Below are positions 18,992 through 29,664 of a stretch of 64,000 nucleotides of DNA, in pieces. The stretch spans positions 1-64,000 of the forward strand of contig NZ_CANNFH010000006.1 in the NCBI RefSeq assembly GCF_947503875.1. The letters are read 5' to 3'. The stretch's first letter is position 1. Every line of letters starts with the position of its first letter. A model generated the notes under the pieces. That model did no database searches, had not been told where the DNA came from, and saw only the letters and a program-made list of their open reading frames with translations. The stretch comes from an uncultured Polaribacter sp. (GTDB lineage: Bacteria > Bacteroidota > Bacteroidia > Flavobacteriales > Flavobacteriaceae). The position numbers were made by a program, and so were the translations under genes.

Positions 18992-19987
18992 ATGAAAACT
19001 TTAAAACATATTTTTGGTGTAGATGTTAGTAAAGACAAGTTAGATTTATATTCTAGCTGTAAAGGTAATTTTGTTTTGAGAAACGAGGAGTTAGGTTTTA
19101 AGAAATTACTTAAAATTTTACCAGAAAACGCTTTGGTTGTTATAGAGGCTACTGGCTATTATCATTACTTGTTAGCCCAATTTTTAGTTAAACATAATGT
19201 AAGTGTTTCTGTTGTTAATCCCTTAAGTGTAAAGCGTTTTATACAGATGAAGCTATCTCAGGTAAAAACGGATAAGAGTGATGCAAAATTTATTTATCAA
19301 TATGCTTTAACCAACAAAATGCCAGAATATAAGGTTTTATCAGAGGTACAGTTTGAGTGCTTGCAATTATACCGATTATTAGATATTTATGTAAAGCAAA
19401 GTACTGCTATTAAAAATAAAATTCATGGTGAAAAAGTATTAGGATTTCCATCAAAAGCAGTGATTGATTCTTTAAAAAGGAATTTAGAATATTTAAAAAA
19501 TGAAATGACTCTGATAGAAGAGGAGTTGGTTGGCCTAATAAGTACAGAGTATAAAGATCAGTTGGATTTATTAAAAACAATTCCTGGTATTGGTAATAAA
19601 ACAGCTATGTATTTGATAATTATTTCCAATGGTTTTAGAAAATTTGAGAAGGGAAAACAACTATGTAATTATGCCGGAATTACACCTGCTATTAGGGAAT
19701 CTGGAAGTAGTGTGAGAGGCAAAAGTAGAATAAGTAAAATGGGGAATAAAAAGTTAAGAAACCTTTTATTTTTAGCTTCTTTTACGGCTAGTAAATACAA
19801 TAGGGCCTGCAGGGAGTTGTATGAACGGATAATAGCCAAAGGAAAAAGTAAAAAATTAGCAATGATTGCAGTAGCAAACAAGCTTATAAAACAGGCGTTT
19901 GCGGTTGTTAAAAAAGGAGTTGTTTATAATGAGAATTATGTATCAAAGCTTTATAATACAGAGAATATTAAGGTTGTTTTAGAGTAA
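18992..19987 (+). CDS. IS110 family transposase (DEDD)
   Basis: FGVDVSKDKLDLY, VVIEATGYYHYLLA, KTDKSDAKFI, TIPGIGNKTAMYLI, CNYAGITPAIRESGSSVRGKSRISKMGNKKLRNLL. Confidence 0.95.
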   Translation: MKTLKHIFGVDVSKDKLDLYSSCKGNFVLRNEELGFKKLLKILPENALVVIEATGYYHYLLAQFLVKHNVSVSVVNPLSVKRFIQMKLSQVKTDKSDAKFIYQYALTNKMPEYKVLSEVQFECLQLYRLLDIYVKQSTAIKNKIHGEKVLGFPSKAVIDSLKRNLEYLKNEMTLIEEELVGLISTEYKDQLDLLKTIPGIGNKTAMYLIIISNGFRKFEKGKQLCNYAGITPAIRESGSSVRGKSRISKMGNKKLRNLLFLASFTASKYNRACRELYERIIAKGKSKKLAMIAVANKLIKQAFAVVKKGVVYNENYVSKLYNTENIKVVLE

Positions 19988-20145
19988 AATTAGTTTGTTG
20001 TAATTAAATGGTATGAGATTGTAAACTTTGTTTTAAAGAAGCTTTTACCTACTGATAAACAAAGTAAAAATGTTCTGTTATCCCGTAAATTTTAATGATA
20101 ATAGGTTATATTTGTAGAGATATAACTAGTTAGGGCACATTTCAA

Positions 20146-20934
20146 ATGAAAAAAATTACGCTAATTTTAATATCATTATTTACAATTTGGAGTTGTGAAA
20201 ATGACGGTATTTCTGATAAAGATAAAAAGAAGGCAATTGAACTTAATAATCAGGCTGTAGATTTGAGGATTAACGGAAAAATGGAAGAAGCTAAAAAAAT
20301 CTACGAAAAAGCATTGAAAATTGATGGAACTAATTTGAATATACGTTTTGCATTAATTGGAATTTATGGAGAAGAAAAGGAGACTGAGAAAGCTTTTGAA
20401 CTTTTAGAAAAACTACCCGAAAAACAGAAAGGCACAGTTTATTATTATCAAGCAAAAGCTGGAATTTTTGAATTAAATGGAGATATTGAAAATGCAAAAA
20501 TAAATTATGTAAATGCTTATAATTTAAGTGAAATAGGAGAAATTAAAAACGAAAAAGACTTAAACTCTCTTGTAGGTTATGCTATGATTGAGACCTTTTC
20601 AGGGCAGAAAGAAAGAGCTGTAGAAAGAATAAATAAAGTACTGAAATTTGACTGGTTAACAGAAAACAATAAAGAATATTTAGAAACTTTTAGAAACGAA
20701 TTTGAGTTTTATCAAGGTAATGGTGCATTGGAATTTGAAAATAAAACGGAAATTAGGATTTGTACAAAAAATACGGATAGTTTAAAAACTTTATTAAGGA
20801 ACAATCATATTAATATTTCAGGAGGCAGTAATCCAATTGGAAAAAATAAATTGTCAGAATTGAGAATTAATAGTAAATTTAGAAGTGCGATTGAGAAATT
20901 AGGAATAAAAGAATGTGAAAAAAACGTGCCCTAA
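20146..20934 (+). CDS. TPR-repeat lipoprotein (cassette 1)
   Basis: Lipobox IWSC; tetratricopeptide helices; stop codon inside the downstream attC-like core. Confidence 0.7.
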   Translation: MKKITLILISLFTIWSCENDGISDKDKKKAIELNNQAVDLRINGKMEEAKKIYEKALKIDGTNLNIRFALIGIYGEEKETEKAFELLEKLPEKQKGTVYYYQAKAGIFELNGDIENAKINYVNAYNLSEIGEIKNEKDLNSLVGYAMIETFSGQKERAVERINKVLKFDWLTENNKEYLETFRNEFEFYQGNGALEFENKTEIRICTKNTDSLKTLLRNNHINISGGSNPIGKNKLSELRINSKFRSAIEKLGIKECEKNVP

Positions 20935-21061
20935 CACCGTGTATAATTTATTGCTATTTAAGGCAATTTTGGAAAGTTTTTGCACACTTTAAATGTAGTA
21001 ATTATTTACTAACTTTACGCTAAACCAACGCAACAAACCATACACAACAACGTTATGTAAC
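20926..21061 (+). repeat. attC-like site A
   Basis: GTGCCCTAAC-ACC-GTGTATAATTTATTGC ... GCAACAAACCATACAC-AACAAC-GTTATGTAAC; arms are inverted repeats. Confidence 0.8.
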
Positions 21062-21073
21062 ATTTAACCAAAA

Positions 21074-21640
21074 ATGATAATTACACCTTCAAAAGAGAAA
21101 CTTATAATCGAGAATTTTATCGAATATTCATTTGATAATGACGATTATGACTTTACGCCAGATTTTGAGATTTTTAAAAAATTAAATTCGACTGACCAAT
21201 ATTTTCTGGCTGAAAATTATAATTGGGACGATGGAATTGAAGTTTTGAATTGGATTGTAAATAGTCCAAAATGTGATTTAGGAACTGCAACTCTAATATT
21301 TTGGAAAGCTGAACCTGATTATTATACGGAATATAATACTGAAAATATAAGCGAAAGTGATAAAGACATTTTTGATTTACTATTAAACATAATTTCAAAA
21401 ATTAAAAATCGTGAATTTAAAAAAAGGCGATTTGAATTTATTCCTTCAGAATACAATGTTGCCGAATTTAAAAGTGAGTATGATATTTGGAAATTACCGA
21501 ATGAATTAAAAACTGGAAATAAAGGAATTTTACCAATTAGTGTGAGTAGAATTAAATCAATAATTTGGAATTACCAACGAAATAAAAGACTAAAAAAACG
21601 AGAGAAACGAAAAGCAAAAAGGAGAAAAAACGTTACATAA
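21074..21640 (+). CDS. DUF4274-like hypothetical protein (cassette 2)
   Basis: YNWDDGIEVLNWIVNSPKCDLGTATLIFWKAEPDYY; highly basic C-terminus. Confidence 0.6.
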   Translation: MIITPSKEKLIIENFIEYSFDNDDYDFTPDFEIFKKLNSTDQYFLAENYNWDDGIEVLNWIVNSPKCDLGTATLIFWKAEPDYYTEYNTENISESDKDIFDLLLNIISKIKNREFKKRRFEFIPSEYNVAEFKSEYDIWKLPNELKTGNKGILPISVSRIKSIIWNYQRNKRLKKREKRKAKRRKNVT

Positions 21641-21770
21641 CAGCATGTATAAAAAATTGCTATATTTCGCTTAATTAAAGGTTAGTTGTTTTTTAGTTGC
21701 AACTATTTTCCTGCGGAAAATACTCGCACACTTTAAACGCAACTTTCCATACACATTCACGTTGTACTTA
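21632..21770 (+). repeat. attC-like site B (divergent subtype)
   Basis: GTTACATAAC-AGC-ATGTATAAAAAATTGC ... CGCAACTTTCCATACAC-ATTCAC-GTTGTACTTA. Confidence 0.75.
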
Positions 21771-21852
21771 ATGCGGGACAAAAAGTCGCATATTGAATTT
21801 AATTGAACTATTTTTTGTATTTTTGGTACATATGTAATTTACAAGAGATAAA

Positions 21853-22926
21853 ATGTCCCAAATCAATAAACTTGCAAAACTTCCACCGAAAAGAGAAAAA
21901 GTAGAAACTATTGAAATTCTTCGTCAATTGAGTAAATCCTCAAATTCATTAGGAGAATTAAAAGGAATTGCCAAAACTATTCCTAATCAAGAAATGCTGA
22001 TTAATGCTGTTGTCTTACAAGAAGCTAAAGATAGTTCTGAAATAGAAAATATTATTACAACACAAGATGAATTATATAAAGCTTTAGCTACAAACACAAA
22101 ACAAGCAACTCAAGTTAAAGAAGTTATAAATTACAGAAGTGCTATTTTTTCTGGTTTTGAATTAGTTAAGAAACAAGGATTTTTAAAGTTAAAAGATATA
22201 GAAACTATTCAAAAAACCATTATCGAAAATAATGCTGGAATTCGCTCAATGGCTGGAACTGTGCTAAAAAACGATAAAACTGGAGAAATTGTCTATACAC
22301 CACCACAAGAAAAAGACGAAATATTGGATTTATTAAGTAATTTCTTAGAACATTTTAATGTTAAACAAAACGATTTAAATCCATTAATTAATTTAGCTAT
22401 TTTACATTATCAGTTTGAAAGTATTCATCCTTTTTATGACGGAAATGGAAGAGCAGGAAGAATACTAAATATTTTATACCTAATTCTAAATGACCTTTTA
22501 GATATTCCTATTTTATATTTAAGTTCATATATCAACGAAAATAAAGCGGATTATTACCGTTTACTAAACACAGTTAACAATAAAGATGAATGGTCTAAAT
22601 ATATAATCTATATGCTAAAAGCTATTGAAATAACATCAAATAGAACTATTGAAAAAATAAATTCAATTAAAATATTGTTGGATAAAACTATATTATTTGC
22701 TCAAGAAAAGGAACCTAAAATTTATAGAAAAGAATTAATTGAATTACTCTTTGAACAACCTTATTCTAAAATAGAATTTGTTGTAGAAAAATTAAATGTA
22801 GAAAGAAAAGCGGCTTCACGCTATTTAAAAAAAATGGAAGATATTGGAATATTAACTTCTCAAAAAATTGGAAGAGAAAGTGTTTACGTAAATACAAAAT
22901 TGATAGAAATATTGAAAAAGCACTAA
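21853..22926 (+). CDS. Fic/DOC family protein (cassette 3)
   Basis: HPFYDGNGRAGRILN (HPFxxGNGR) motif; DSSEIENI possible inhibitory-helix region; C-terminal winged helix-like segment. Confidence 0.9.
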   Translation: MSQINKLAKLPPKREKVETIEILRQLSKSSNSLGELKGIAKTIPNQEMLINAVVLQEAKDSSEIENIITTQDELYKALATNTKQATQVKEVINYRSAIFSGFELVKKQGFLKLKDIETIQKTIIENNAGIRSMAGTVLKNDKTGEIVYTPPQEKDEILDLLSNFLEHFNVKQNDLNPLINLAILHYQFESIHPFYDGNGRAGRILNILYLILNDLLDIPILYLSSYINENKADYYRLLNTVNNKDEWSKYIIYMLKAIEITSNRTIEKINSIKILLDKTILFAQEKEPKIYRKELIELLFEQPYSKIEFVVEKLNVERKAASRYLKKMEDIGILTSQKIGRESVYVNTKLIEILKKH

Positions 22927-23062
22927 GTACAACACCGTGTATAATTCATTGCTAGTTATAGTCTACTTACGAAAGTCCTCGCGGACTTTCTATCTGTGAT
23001 TTATTTGCTAACTTTAGTGCTTAAACCACGCAACGAAATCATACACAAAACCGTTGTACAAC
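22924..23062 (+). repeat. attC-like site C
   Basis: TAAGTACAAC-ACC-GTGTATAATTCATTGC ... GCAACGAAATCATACAC-AAAACC-GTTGTACAAC, with central GAAAGTCC-TCGC-GGACTTTC hairpin. Confidence 0.8.
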
Positions 23063-23069
23063 ATAAAGA

Positions 23070-23630
23070 ATGAAAAATAAATCCGTTATAATAATTATAT
23101 TTTTTGCTTTCAGTTTGACTATATATTCTCAACAATCTGAAAAATACCTTGAATTGACAAAAAACTTGAAACCAATTGATTCCGTAATTAAAATTAAAAA
23201 ATATAGAAACGGAAAAACTAAACAGATTTCTAAATTTTTAGTCTACGAAAATGGAGAATATAATTACGATTTAATGAGTGATAAACAGCAGTTATTTAAT
23301 AAAAAAGGAGAATTGATTTTTGAACAATTATATGACAGTTTTGGAATCCTATTGTATCAAAAGCAATTTAATGAATTTGGAGAAATTTATAAAATAATCG
23401 AAACAAACCGAATTGAATTAAAAAAGAATATTTCAGTTGAAGAATTATTTACCACTAACAAAAATATAATAATTGAGAGTTTTGAGAAAGAATTTAATAA
23501 TACGGAAAAAGGAGAAAAACTGAAATTGTGGAAAGCTGGAAAAAGATTGAATGGAAAAAAAATTGGCGAATGGAAAATTTATAATCTTTGTGACAATACA
23601 TCGAAAATAAAGAAGTATAAAGACAATTAA
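23070..23630 (+). CDS. Hypothetical secreted protein (cassette 4, first ORF)
   Basis: Signal peptide; YENGEYNYDL/KKGELIFEQLYDSFGILLYQKQFNEFGE repeats reminiscent of MORN-like antitoxin-type repeats. Confidence 0.5.
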   Translation: MKNKSVIIIIFFAFSLTIYSQQSEKYLELTKNLKPIDSVIKIKKYRNGKTKQISKFLVYENGEYNYDLMSDKQQLFNKKGELIFEQLYDSFGILLYQKQFNEFGEIYKIIETNRIELKKNISVEELFTTNKNIIIESFEKEFNNTEKGEKLKLWKAGKRLNGKKIGEWKIYNLCDNTSKIKKYKDN

Positions 23631-23635
23631 AAGTT

Positions 23636-24046
23636 ATGAAAAACGTATTTAAAATAATAACTGGAACAACTATTTTAATAATGATTGTTTGGTTTTCACA
23701 TCCTAATTATCCTAATAATTGGAATAAAATTAAAATTAGTGATTCCAGAATTAAAATGGAAAATCAAATTGGAAAATCTCTGACATCTGAATATTATGAT
23801 ATAAAAGGAGATATTTATATTTCTGAAACTTTTTTAGGTTGGTATAGACTTGATATACATTCAGACAAAAATGAAAATATTGGAATGATAAATATTAAAT
23901 TTTATTTAGGAACGAAAGAACATTATAAATGGTGGAATTTAAAAAACGTTGTACAACAGCGTATAAATTTTATTGCTATTTTTAGCTTATTTGGGAAAGG
24001 TTTCGCACACTTTAATTTTAGTAAATATTTACTAACTTTACGCTAA
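23636..24046 (+). CDS. Hypothetical protein whose C-terminus reads into the attC-like site (cassette 4, second ORF)
   Basis: N-terminal hydrophobic segment; residues from NVVQQRINFIAIF onward are encoded by the repeat. Confidence 0.5.
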   Translation: MKNVFKIITGTTILIMIVWFSHPNYPNNWNKIKISDSRIKMENQIGKSLTSEYYDIKGDIYISETFLGWYRLDIHSDKNENIGMINIKFYLGTKEHYKWWNLKNVVQQRINFIAIFSLFGKGFAHFNFSKYLLTLR

Positions 24047-24084
24047 ATCAACGCAACAAATCTTATACAATCACGTTAGGCAAC
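23948..24084 (+). repeat. attC-like site D
   Basis: GTTGTACAAC-AGC-GTATAAATTTTATTGC ... CGCAACAAATCTTATAC-AATCAC-GTTAGGCAAC. Confidence 0.8.
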
Positions 24085-24141
24085 ATTTGGTGGAACGAAA
24101 AAAAACACATACCTTTGACGTTAGTAACGTAAAACAAGAAT

Positions 24142-24423
24142 ATGATAATTTCTTTTGGAACGAAAGAAACTGAAAAAATTTGGAATGGAATTCGAGTAAA
24201 GAAATTGCCGAACGAAATTCAAAATGTAGGTAGGAGAAAAATGAGAATGCTTAATAACTCACAAGATATTGCTGATTTAAGAATTCCACCATCAAACCGA
24301 CTTGAAAAGTTAACAGGAAATCTGAAAGAATATTATAGTATTAGAATTAATAAACAATGGAGAATCATCTTTATTTGGAACAACGGAAACGCAAGTGAAG
24401 TTGAAATAGTTGATTATCACTAA
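24142..24423 (+). CDS. higB: RelE/HigB-type toxin (cassette 5)
   Basis: TEKIWNGIRVKKLPNEIQNVGRRKMRMLNNSQDIADLRIPPSNRLEKLTGNLKEYYSIRINKQWRIIFIW is typical of HigB. Confidence 0.9.
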   Translation: MIISFGTKETEKIWNGIRVKKLPNEIQNVGRRKMRMLNNSQDIADLRIPPSNRLEKLTGNLKEYYSIRINKQWRIIFIWNNGNASEVEIVDYH

Positions 24424-24434
24424 AAAAGAAAATT

Positions 24435-24737
24435 ATGGAAAAATTAGCAAATATTCATCCAGGAGAAATTTTATTTCACGAATTTCTTGAGCCTCTTGAA
24501 ATTTCTGCATATAGACTTTCAAAAGACTTGAAAATTCCTCAAACAAGAATTTCTGAAATTATAAAAGGAAATCGAAGAGTTACAGCGGATACAGCTTTAA
24601 GGTTAAGTAAATATTTTGGAAATTCTGCAAAATTTTGGTTAGGAATCCAAGATGACTTTGATATTGAAAATCAAAAGGAAATTAAAGAAGCTGAATTGAA
24701 AAATATAAAACATTACGAAAACAACAACGTTGCCTAA
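24435..24737 (+). CDS. higA: HigA-type antitoxin, XRE family HTH (cassette 5)
   Basis: HPGEILFHEFLEPLEISAYRLSKDLKIPQTRISEIIKGNRRVTADTALRLSKYFGNSAKFWLGIQ. Confidence 0.93.
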   Translation: MEKLANIHPGEILFHEFLEPLEISAYRLSKDLKIPQTRISEIIKGNRRVTADTALRLSKYFGNSAKFWLGIQDDFDIENQKEIKEAELKNIKHYENNNVA

Positions 24738-24866
24738 CAACGTGTATAATTCATTGCTAGTTATAGCCTACTTACGAAAGTCCTCGCGGACTTTCTATCT
24801 GTGATTTATTTGCTAACTTTAGTGCTTAAACACGCAACGAAATCATACACAAACACGTTACCAAAA
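24729..24866 (+). repeat. attC-like site E (nearly identical to site C)
   Basis: GTTGCCTAAC-AAC-GTGTATAATTCATTGC ... GCAACGAAATCATACAC-AAACAC-GTTACCAAAA. Confidence 0.8.
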
Positions 24867-25274
24867 ATAGCTCACTCACTCAAATGTTGAATTGAAAATA
24901 GTGAATGAAAACTAAAAAAAGTGAAATTTAAAATCGCTTAAACAACCTCTCAACAATCGGAATTTTCCCAAAGTTTGCGGAATTTCTAAAAACGTGAAAA
25001 ATTACTCAAACGCTGAAAACAAAATTGCGGAATTATCACTCAAATGTTGAATTGAGCAAAATACGGAAAACCAAAATTGCTCAATTTTTTCTTAAAATGG
25101 GGAATTTAAAATGGCAGAATAATCACTCGAATGTTGAATTTAGCAACCTAGATATTTATTATAAGTGGAATTGAACTAAAACAGGAATTAAAAATGTGGA
25201 ATTATCTCTCAAACGTGAAAAATAAAAAAAATGAGAAATTAATGAAATCTGAAATTCCTAATAAAAATCACTAC
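24867..25274 (+). other. ORF-less cassette 6 with degenerate internal repeats
   Basis: No ORF of 60 aa or more; repeats of TCACTCAAATGTTGAATTGAGCAAAA near 24876, 25036 and 25123 and shorter relatives at 25004 and 25205. Confidence 0.6.
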
Positions 25275-25410
25275 TTTTGGTAACAGCGTGTATAGTTTAT
25301 TGCTATTTATGGCAACTTTGGAAAGTTTCTGTTGACTTCAAATGTATTAAATTTTCACTAACTTTACGTTATATCAACGCAACAAACCATACACAATCAA
25401 GTTGTGCAAA
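25275..25410 (+). repeat. attC-like site F
   Basis: TTTTGGTAAC-AGC-GTGTATAGTTTATTGC ... CGCAACAAACCATACAC-AATCAA-GTTGTGCAAA. Confidence 0.8.
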
Positions 25411-25434
25411 ATATCCAAACCCGAAACTAATTGA

Positions 25435-26658
25435 ATGAATTTAACAGAAAGATACCCAAAAGTAGTTTTAGAAGAAGTAGAAGAAAATAGAGTTCACATA
25501 AAAAACTTATGGAATGATGACAGTTTTTTATTGCGATTTAATAAAGATACTGATTTAACTTTTTTGAATAGTTTGTACTTTCCTGAAGAACTTATGGCTT
25601 CTTACTCAATTGAAAAAGGAATTATAGAAGTTTACGCATTTCCATTAGACCCAAATGAAGAATTGGTAAAGCGAAGTTTTACTTTCAATTATAAAGGGAA
25701 TTCATATTTATGTAATTGGGAAAAACCTACAGAAGACTTTGAAAAAATAGCAACAGCTTTTAGAGAAGATAAAGAAGAAAGCAAAACTTCTTACAGAAAC
25801 TTAAGACAATTTCGAGATTATTATAGAAAAGATGAATTACCTGATTTTTTATCTAAATATTTTAAAGATAAGGAACCGTTTAACTTCTTCATAAAAGGAA
25901 ACTTTAAACCCATAGAAAACGAAATCGTGGAATTTTGTCGACATCTAAACTTTTATATGTCATATTTTGACAGATTAACACCCAACGTTCAGATATTTCA
26001 AAAGAGTTATAAAAAAGAAAACTTTAAAGTTCCTTGTTATTCATTATTCGATACTTTTCCAGATACAATAAATGGTACAGAAATAGATAACATTCTTTTA
26101 GAAATAATAACAGTTGCAAATAGCACAACAGATAATAGATTGAGTTTTATATTTTATTATCAAATTTTAGAATATGCATCATATTATTATTTAAAATCAG
26201 ATATTAAACACAAATTAACAACACTATTAAAAAAACCAGATATATCTTATAATTCAGAAGAATATAGTAAAACTATAATTGAAGAATTTAAAAATCATTT
26301 TAAAAACAATGATGATAAAGCGAAATTAGAAATGCTAATATCTGAACACGTTAAACTGAAAGATTTGAAAATCGAACTAGAAGATAATATTGAATATTTT
26401 AGTAGAAAATTAGAATTTGAAGGTGGATTTAAGTTAGACCCAATAATGAAAAATGAATTAACTGGAATTGAACAATTACCTGAAAATACAATAAAAATAA
26501 TTAAAGAAAATATTGTCAGTATTAGAAATAGTCTTGTACATTTAAGAGAATCTCGTGAAAATAAAGTTATACTTCCGACTGCAAAAAATGACGATTTATT
26601 GACACCATATCTTTATGTTTTAAGAAGAATATCTGAAAAAATAATAATTGAAAGATAA
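25435..26658 (+). CDS. Hypothetical protein (cassette 7)
   Basis: 407-aa ORF bounded by attC-like sites; no recognised domain. Confidence 0.6.
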   Translation: MNLTERYPKVVLEEVEENRVHIKNLWNDDSFLLRFNKDTDLTFLNSLYFPEELMASYSIEKGIIEVYAFPLDPNEELVKRSFTFNYKGNSYLCNWEKPTEDFEKIATAFREDKEESKTSYRNLRQFRDYYRKDELPDFLSKYFKDKEPFNFFIKGNFKPIENEIVEFCRHLNFYMSYFDRLTPNVQIFQKSYKKENFKVPCYSLFDTFPDTINGTEIDNILLEIITVANSTTDNRLSFIFYYQILEYASYYYLKSDIKHKLTTLLKKPDISYNSEEYSKTIIEEFKNHFKNNDDKAKLEMLISEHVKLKDLKIELEDNIEYFSRKLEFEGGFKLDPIMKNELTGIEQLPENTIKIIKENIVSIRNSLVHLRESRENKVILPTAKNDDLLTPYLYVLRRISEKIIIER

Positions 26659-26662
26659 ATAC

Positions 26663-26799
26663 TTTGCACAACAGCGTATAAATTTTATTGCTATTTTTGG
26701 CTTACTTGGGAAAGATTTCGCACACTTTAAATGTAGTAAATTTTCACTAACTTTACGCTAAACCAACGCAACAACTCATACACAACAACGTTGTACACC
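26663..26799 (+). repeat. attC-like site G
   Basis: TTTGCACAAC-AGC-GTATAAATTTTATTGC ... CGCAACAACTCATACAC-AACAAC-GTTGTACACC. Confidence 0.8.
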
Positions 26800-27206
26800 A
26801 TTTACGAAAATGTACTTTCCTGAAATAGGTTGACTAAAAATTAAACACTTAATTATAGTCAGTTACGAAAACGCAAAAAGAACACTGGCAGAGAAGAAAG
26901 TACTAAAAAGTAACATTAGAAACCAAATTATTTGTCGTTGACCAAATTCAAAATGGTCAAATCTCAAGAAACTTTGCTTCCAAAAAATAGGATGTTCCAA
27001 GAACAACGATTGGTTATTTGGATAAAAAAATACAATACTTTAGTGCAACAAAACACAGGTATGAGTAAAAACGATGAAATAAAAAAAATGAAGGAAAAAA
27101 CTGAAAAATTTGAGTTTGTAAAAGACTTTCGGCAAGATATTTTTGCTAATATGGAAATTTTTAGAGGCGTGGATATGTCAAAAAAGTCATTACCCAAAAC
27201 ACCTTC

Positions 27207-27222
27207 CTGCCGGCAGGCAGAT
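27207..27222. repeat. GC-rich palindrome copy 1, TCCTGCCGGCAGGCAG
   Basis: Inserted in the transposase between KTP and LAKEIAL, causing frameshift and stop. Confidence 0.75.
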
Positions 27223-27902
27223 TAGCAAAAGAAATAGCGCTAAAGAAGAAAAACCGTTTAAAACAAAGTGGTTCTATGGATGTTTTGGGATTAGTAAACA
27301 AGCCTTTTGCAAAAGACTTAAAAGCCAACAAAAACAACAAATCAATCAACAAAAAATAGTTGTGTTAGTGTTAAATTATAGAAAGTCAGTTGGTATGAGA
27401 ACAGCTGGAATCAAGCTCTATAGCGAACTAAAATAAGATTTTATAACCAATGATATTAAAATTGGTAGAGACAAGTTTTACAACGTTTTAAGAATGTACA
27501 ATTTTCTTGTTCCAAAGTTAAAAAACTATATAACAACAACAGACTCTAAACATCAGTTTAGAAAATACAAAAACCTAATTAAAGATAAAGTACCCACTAG
27601 ACCAGAGCAGTTGTGGGTTAGCGATATTACCTATATAAAAACAGAAAACGGACATAACTATTTAGCAATCGTAACAGACGCATATTCTAAGCAAATTATG
27701 GGCTATAAATTAGCAAATCATATGAGAACATCACTTTGTACAGAGGCACTCGCTATGGCTATTAAAAATAGAAAATATCCTAATAAAGGGTTGATACATC
27801 ATTCTGATAGAGGTTTTCAATATTGTAATCCTAAATATACTCAGTTTGCTGAGAAAAATGGAATTACAATGAGTATGACTGAGCAATATGACCCTTATGA
27901 AC

Positions 27903-27921
27903 CTGCCTGCCGGCAGGCAGA
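27903..27921. repeat. GC-rich palindrome copy 2, CTGCCTGCCGGCAGGCAG
   Basis: Inserted within DPYE^NAIAERIN of the transposase, causing frameshift. Confidence 0.75.
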
Positions 27922-28296
27922 AATGCAATTGCAGAACGTATTAATAGAACTTTAAAATATGAATATGGTTTAAGACAAACGCTTAAAAATACAGATATAG
28001 CAAAGAAAACAGCGATGCAAGCAGTGTATATTTACAATCATTTAAGAGCACATTGTAGTCTAAAATTAAGAAAACCAAGCGAAGTACATCAAAATCCAAA
28101 TATCAAATACAAGTCATATCGAAAAAATAAACTAAATTTGACGAATTTGAAATTTAAGCAACAACTTAGTTCAAATTATTTTTTACCGTTCTAAACGGCC
28201 AAAAAAGATAGTTTGGAAGGTATAAAAAAGACCAAAAAATTGTCATCCTATATCAGTATAATTAAGAAAACCAACAACCTTAACAGAACTTGAAAA

Positions 28297-29664
28297 ATGA
28301 ATCAGCATATTTTAATAAAAAAACCTACAATAGTAAATGAAGGAAAGTCATTTGTGGCAGATGTACTTTTAATTGACGGACTAATTGATAAAATTGGAGA
28401 TATTGACATTGAATCAAATTATAAAATAATTGACGGAGCAGGGAAATACCTTTTTCCAGGAATTATTGACGGACAAGTTCATTTTAGAGACCCTGGCCTT
28501 ACACATAAAGGCGATTTATATACCGAAAGTAAATCTGCCATTGCTGGTGGAGTTACTTCTTTTATTGATATGCCAAATACAGTTCCGAATATTTTAACGG
28601 TTAAAAGTCTTAAAGAAAAATTTGAAATTGCTTCAAAAAAATCTTTAGCAAATTACTCATTTTTTCTTGGTGTAAACGGAGATAATATTGACGAAGTTAT
28701 AAAGATGGATACTAGTCAATTTATTGGTGTTTCAGATGACGGATTATATTTTACAAAAAAGGGTAATCTTTTGGCTGATAGTCCAGAAAAAATGGAAAAA
28801 CTTTTTGCTAACTGTAAATCGATTATAGCCATTCATTCAGAAAAAGAAGAAATTGTAGAGGCAAATGAACAGGCTTTCAGAGAAAAATATGGAGAGGACA
28901 TTCCTGCAAAATTTCATCCAGTTATTAGGAGTACTCAAGGCTGTTTTGAGGCTACTAAACGTGCAATTGAAATAGCAAAAAAACACAATGCGAGACTGCA
29001 CATTTTACATTTAACAACTGAAGCAGAAACCCACCTTTTTCAAAATGACACTCCGTTAAAAGACAAAAAAATAACTACTGAGGTTTCAGTACATCATCTA
29101 TGGTTTTCAGAAAAAGATTATGACCGACTTGGAATGCTTATAAAGTGGAATCCAGCAATAAAATCAGAAAAGGACAGAAAAGGTTTATTAAAAGCACTTC
29201 TTGACGACAAGATTGACCTTATAACTACTGACCACGCACCACACACTTTAGAAGAAAAAGAAAAACCTTATTTTCAATCTATGTCAGGTGCACCAATGGT
29301 TCAGCATACTTTAAATTGTATGTTGGAATTTTACAAACAAGGTCTGATTTCTTTAGAAAAAATAGTGGAGAAAATGTGCCATAATCCAGCAATTTTATAC
29401 AGTATGACAAAGAGAGGATTTATCCGAGAAGGTTATTTTGCAGACTTGACCTTGGTGGATTTGAACAGCAAATGGACAGTCACTAAAGATAATATTTTGT
29501 ATAAATGCGGTTGGTCACCATTAATAGGAACGACTTTTCAAACGAAAATAAAACAAACATTTGTGAACGGAAATTTAGTTTACGACGATGGTGAATTTTT
29601 TGAGCAAGAAAAAGGAAAAGAAATTGAATTTGGTAGTAGAAATGACGAAAACACTACCGCTTAA
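28297..29664 (+). CDS. Dihydroorotase-family amidohydrolase
   Basis: FPGIIDGQVHFRDPGLTHKGDLYTES, MPNTVPN, LHLTTEAE, TDHAPHTLEEKEKPY. Confidence 0.88.
   Translation: MNQHILIKKPTIVNEGKSFVADVLLIDGLIDKIGDIDIESNYKIIDGAGKYLFPGIIDGQVHFRDPGLTHKGDLYTESKSAIAGGVTSFIDMPNTVPNILTVKSLKEKFEIASKKSLANYSFFLGVNGDNIDEVIKMDTSQFIGVSDDGLYFTKKGNLLADSPEKMEKLFANCKSIIAIHSEKEEIVEANEQAFREKYGEDIPAKFHPVIRSTQGCFEATKRAIEIAKKHNARLHILHLTTEAETHLFQNDTPLKDKKITTEVSVHHLWFSEKDYDRLGMLIKWNPAIKSEKDRKGLLKALLDDKIDLITTDHAPHTLEEKEKPYFQSMSGAPMVQHTLNCMLEFYKQGLISLEKIVEKMCHNPAILYSMTKRGFIREGYFADLTLVDLNSKWTVTKDNILYKCGWSPLIGTTFQTKIKQTFVNGNLVYDDGEFFEQEKGKEIEFGSRNDENTTA

Follow-up and report, generated by a model that had tools for sequence, protein, structure and literature searches.

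The window, by which we mean the whole stretch of 64,000 nucleotides analysed here (contig NZ_CANNFH010000006.1 of an uncultured Polaribacter sp., positions 1 to 64,000), raises the question of whether seven long repeats separating small gene modules form an integron, and, if so, which recombinase moves its cassettes. The original prediction had offered a remnant cluster, an island mobilised in trans or a cassette system using a different recombinase, and a combination of these is favoured here: we estimate a probability of about 90% that the window contains the portion of a chromosomal integron next to attI, its own integrase having been lost, in a system run by a non-canonical tyrosine recombinase of the type of L002, which is encoded on another contig of the same genome.

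The seven repeats are present in the sequence at the predicted positions and with the predicted shape, and a covariance model built from them re-finds all seven and also detects further sites scattered over other parts of the genome. The most telling evidence is one that the original prediction did not mention, the pairing of the cassette ends. All seven window cassettes (7/7) begin with GTT-N7 and end with N7'-AAC, giving exactly 10 complementary bases, whereas the ends of non-matching window cassettes pair over 3-8 bases only. Delimited by this end pairing, with gene content read from ORFs and Pfam unless noted, the cassettes follow one another on the plus strand, each with an attC site (same strand) recognized from the repeat, end pairing and the covariance model. 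Cassette 1 (20129..21051; start GTTAGGGCAC, end GTGCCCTAAC) carries a TPR lipoprotein-like protein (ORF 20146-20934) and most of attC site 1 (20926..21061), cassette 2 (21052..21760) a DUF4274 protein (ORF 21074-21640; attC site 2, 21632..21770), and cassette 3 (21761..23052; Pfam and relatives) a Fic-domain protein (ORF 21853-22926; attC site 3, 22924..23062). Cassette 4 (23053..24074) has two hypothetical ORFs (23070-23630 and 23636-24046; attC site 4, 23948..24084), and cassette 5 (24075..24856; Pfam), which finds a 92% match in another genome (G627), pairs a HigB-like toxin (24142-24423) with an HTH antitoxin (24435-24737; attC site 5, 24729..24866). Cassette 6 (24857..25400; ORFs) contains no ORF of at least 60 aa and has diverged internal repeats of ~85 bases (attC site 6, 25275..25410), and cassette 7 (25401..26789) encodes a hypothetical 407-aa protein (25435-26658; attC site 7, 26663..26799). 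An eighth cassette begins at 26790 (GTTGTACACCAT) and its end is missing; disrupted IS3-like transposase ORFs on the plus strand (26932..27955), with similar ORFs in relatives, probably cut the array off at this right edge.

Several further features were recorded in the window and the source genome. Single or paired attC-type sites lie off the array in the source genome (G000) at C1:491475, C5:319441, C4:291301 and C5:289579-290591, with weaker ones besides. A dihydroorotase-like gene (pyrC) at window positions 28297-29664 is a divergent second copy, 54% identical to the usual one, with a close match (88%) in one sampled relative only; an empty-site comparison via pyrC was uninformative because the window gene is this divergent paralogue. 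Positions 2070-2211 match the Rfam Flavo-1 RNA.

The head of the array points to a recombinase family. An IS110-family transposase gene (18992..19987, plus strand; ORFs, Pfam PF02371 and PF01548) stands directly upstream of a 3' integrase remnant of the L002 family (20021..20095, plus strand; tblastn and blastn), which consists of 25 codons including the stop, reads VNFVLKKLLPTDKQSKNVLLSRKF-stop, and aligns by blastn to the genome's own integrase with 40/46 positions identical (E 1e-8). The earlier statement that the window encodes no tyrosine recombinase thus stands for intact genes and fails for this remnant. Overlapping the integrase 3' end is the attI region (20049..20128, plus strand), assigned from the same layout in relatives, with its crossover at 20128/20129, where the integrase remnant is followed by TATAACTA and then by the GTT of cassette 1. 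The conserved order before the crossover is GATAA...TTATCC...TATAAC-N-A, and the integrase stop region, TTATCC, TATAAC-N-A and the GTT of the first cassette recur 3' of an integrase gene in ~24 relatives. A promoter-like TAnnTTTG was seen within attI in 9/25 only, and a general internal promoter is not claimed. Since attI and the end of an integrase gene are present, the window is not a bare attC cluster; the loss of the integrase was likely linked to the adjoining IS110 element.

The sites are about 138 bp long. In an alignment of 150 of them, compensatory changes mark 11 of the 16 L-stem pairs and 99.1% of cells pair; the alignment was fitted to the model, and a de novo fold on it gives the same stem. 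This covariation was reached by 0/500 shuffles, and slid controls gave 30-53% pairing. The bottom strand is the more stable in 152/157 sites, by a mean of 3.5 kcal/mol (random segments, as a strand control, split 68 vs 84), and where the bottom strand has conserved G-T pairs, the top strand would have A-C mismatches. We infer that the single bottom strand of attC is the recombination substrate. AAC followed by G occurs in 149/150 sites, and at least 148/150 have central spacers 6 and 3 nt long, as in known attC sites, which have AAC then G and an unequal central spacer (PMC2727003). By definition, the L stem of a canonical attC site also contains two or three extrahelical bases (PMC2727003), and here the stem has none in 143/150 sites and one in seven. 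Cassette ends in relatives match over 8-10 complementary bases in 226/261 and over more than 10 in none; among shuffled end pairs a 10-base match arises in 0.8%. Rfam yielded no attC family, and phage records gave no match to an attC.

Comparison among genomes indicates that cassettes come, go and relocate one at a time, with exact junctions. Thirty cassette pairs are at least 97% identical over their full length at different places, and in 28/30 of these the right flank is unrelated. Identity begins exactly at GTT; at two loci (L085 and L098), one copy of a cassette sits at attI and another at attC. The window's Fic cassette has counterparts in ~10 related genomes at 78-95% identity, and in at least four it lies between attC sites with other neighbours. 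The strain comparison that the original prediction had set as its refutation test turned up precise single-cassette relocation, in the Fic cassette and in the 30 pairs, and the proposed integron-like array with attC-like sites is upheld by end complementarity, covariation, bottom-strand folding bias and this relocation. One array (L080) consists of numerous short cassettes, near-identical and 459 and 510 bases long, that recur in repeated order, which suggests repeated re-insertion or tandem duplication.

What, then, could move these cassettes? The suggested search of the source genome for tyrosine recombinases yielded seven, namely XerC, XerD, a phage-region enzyme (L004), three others, and the intact L002, a 385-aa full copy of the remnant's family (contig C3:359799-360953) that could act in trans on the window array. 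By profile, L002 exceeds the cut-off of NF040815 and reaches 208.6 with the integron profile TIGR02249, under its cut-off of 265. A genus-wide search found clear relatives of it in most genomes of the source genome's genus. A search of the L002 neighbourhood with the R1 model found no attC beside it, and there is no attI either, so its activity in the source genome may be gone. AHSA1 and aminotransferase genes adjoin L002 (at L023) and also the complete integrons at L070 and L108; from the coordinates, L002 is oriented oppositely to those two relative to these genes, which suggests a rearrangement.

In intact systems the integrases of this family measure 370-400 aa, and the catalytic residues are invariant in 31 members. 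The patch (I2) region spans 24-26 residues in the L002 family vs 67-72 in 15 canonical IntI proteins. Evolutionarily, canonical IntI forms one clade (100/100), with the Bacteroidota integrases outside it and XerC/XerD in a separate clade; the AU test does not reject a clade uniting IntI with the L002 family (p 0.265), and an independent origin is not established. AlphaFold2 models match Xer proteins and the IntI structure 2a3v, the best matches among solved structures being archaeal Xer. The N-terminal ~80 residues show a weak but consistent match to the SMARCAL1 HARP domain and to XPB damage-recognition domains: Pfam HARP is hit in 2/31 family members (E about 0.01), and Foldseek on the N-terminal domain returns 4o66 (probability 0.93, E 0.03) together with XPB damage-recognition domains. 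This domain is absent from the XerC/D sequences, and a profile of it matches a Treponema IntI (L156, E 3.6e-5); the domain may help to recognise folded attC. The latter protein, from a Treponema sp. MAG, is the sole one of the 15 canonical IntI with a HARP-like N-terminal domain. Patch-less recombinases with the N-terminal domain also occur in Spirochaetota, Firmicutes and Undinarchaeales MAGs (L129, L130, L136), beside which the R1 model revealed no arrays.

In relatives this recombinase family and the arrays are linked. All attC sites lie past the integrase 3' end and on its strand in 37/37 untruncated integrase neighbourhoods, the first usually within ~0.4-2.5 kb of the gene. Two complete arrays comprise 118 and 120 sites and span 114 and 156 kb, respectively, with every site on the same strand. 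The longest ORF of a cassette (at least 50 aa where found) is co-directional with the array in 150/158 cassettes. Taxonomically, sites occur in 74/80 genomes of the source genome's genus, in 211/251 family genomes (174/203 sampled genera) and in 35/297 genomes of a phylum sample, and the integrase (E below 1e-80) in 169/251 family genomes and 137 of the 203 sampled genera. The two co-occur within the family (Fisher p 1.6e-7 for presence, 1.5e-11 for at least five sites), and site number tracks the integrase, with genus medians of 30.5 vs 3. A clear integrase is absent from 82 family genomes, of which 54 carry sites and 25 at least five, so that remnants or other recombinases exist. Canonical IntI was found in 0/251 family genomes and 0/80 genus genomes, with a positive control of 4/4. 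Among the matches listed, hosts with an integrase and adjoining sites include Winogradskyella ursingii, Seonamhaeicola aphaedonensis and Algibacter onchidii, all Flavobacteriaceae; judging by such named relatives, the host family appears to be mostly marine. Plasmids of Tenacibaculum finnmarkense combine attC sites with toxin-antitoxin genes; on two of them (L239, L240) the attC sites occur with tyrosine recombinase genes and RelE/HigA modules, and L240 also has IS91-type transposases and a TssD gene nearby. On one Flavobacteriaceae contig (L138), two attC-type sites lie on the opposite strand, 5' of an integrase with the N-terminal domain, the reverse of the usual layout.

As seen in relatives, an intact system comprises the integrase gene, an attI overlapping its 3' end and a same-strand array of cassettes, each carrying one or two genes and ending in an attC of ~138 bp. 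Comparison of copies shows that breaks fall precisely at the attI and attC GTT, and the exchanged unit is one cassette with ends complementary over 10 bases. By analogy with known integrons, the attC bottom strand would form a hairpin consisting of R and L stems, the recombinase would insert the folded attC at attI or at another attC, and replication would resolve the product. An L002-family integrase probably catalyses this attI x attC recombination, as its place at array heads suggests, and in the source genome, where the array's integrase is cut to 25 codons, the 385-aa family member on the other contig may do so in trans.

These data also bear on other accounts of the locus. A detector seeking canonical IntI would call a plain CALIN remnant, that is, attC sites once moved by a canonical IntI and now a dead cluster, and the array does stand without an intact integrase in the window and lies between IS elements. 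The presence of attI and an integrase 3' end largely refutes this account; moreover, the integrase family at the array head is not canonical IntI, which is itself absent from the 251 family genomes, and full arrays occur in relatives, with cassettes that are near-identical and have relocated; we regard a dead CALIN as very unlikely. The scattering of single sites in the source genome would fit passive hairpin repeats, spread by themselves or by a transposase and separating genes by chance, but such repeats are not expected to produce cassette-specific complementary ends, same-strand order behind an integrase or relocation of whole cassettes at GTT; for the arrays this account is refuted, and for the locus overall we give it next to no weight.

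It is also conceivable that XerC/XerD or another recombinase moves the cassettes and that the L002 family is a mere passenger, given that the source genome encodes both XerC and XerD and that some genomes carry sites with no clear L002 relative. Such an arrangement seems very improbable to us in view of the L002 family's place at array heads in fixed orientation (37/37), the overlap of attI with the integrase 3' end, and a site number that follows integrase presence. An integron that has lost its integrase and is served by an L002-type recombinase remains the reading we prefer. The system works like an integron and, judged by the I2 patch and extrahelical bases, is not a canonical IntI integron. 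More tentatively, and with somewhat less than even confidence, we suggest that it may represent a second kind of integron in Bacteroidota, in which a patch-less recombinase acts on attC sites without extrahelical bases, using an N-terminal HARP-like junction-binding domain instead, and in which single-strand recombination arose or persists without I2.

For the field, integron sites and the integrase are widespread in a Bacteroidota family where integrons were thought nearly absent: an IntegronFinder 2.0 survey of complete genomes recorded one complete Bacteroidetes integron, in Salinibacter (PMC9024848). Predicted attC sites have been reported from a Polaribacter phage, one of them active with IntI1 (PMC9892861). 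We found no earlier description of these integrons in the open-access literature, and their novelty is provisional. Detectors requiring canonical IntI are expected to miss the L002-family integrase. The arrays reach the scale of Vibrio superintegrons and give access to a large pool of cassette genes in these bacteria, some of it plasmid-borne. The I2 helix is held to be what enabled integron integrases to recombine attC in single-stranded form, and because deleting I2 kills IntI1, causality could not be proved (PMC7790495); a natural integrase without I2, paired with attC sites that lack the bases on which I2 docks, would make the question directly testable.

Compared with known systems, the arrays resemble canonical integrons and the Vibrio cholerae superintegron in having an attI, large same-strand arrays and attC sites with R and L boxes, and they share with canonical integrons the bottom-strand folding, the unpaired asymmetric central spacer, the G after the bottom-strand AAC, the GTT crossover and toxin-antitoxin cassettes. 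Cassette ends are complementary over 10 bases here and over 7 in classical integrons. Unlike canonical IntI, the L002 family lacks the patch (I2) insertion and bears an extra N-terminal domain; its gene lies on the array strand, whereas canonical intI is divergent from the cassettes, and its attC stems lack the canonical extrahelical bases. XerA, XerC and XerD resemble the L002 family in a catalytic domain without the insertion, with archaeal Xer as the best structural matches, but XerC/D fall in a separate clade without the N-terminal domain and, to our knowledge, are not known as integron integrases. Spirochaetota integrons have been reported with the integrase in reverse orientation relative to the array (PMC9668308), an orientation that the L002 family shares with those of Treponema, whose L156 IntI also has the N-terminal domain, so that this domain may go with that layout; unlike the L002 family, the Treponema IntI has the patch insertion, with 67 residues in that region, and falls in the canonical IntI group.
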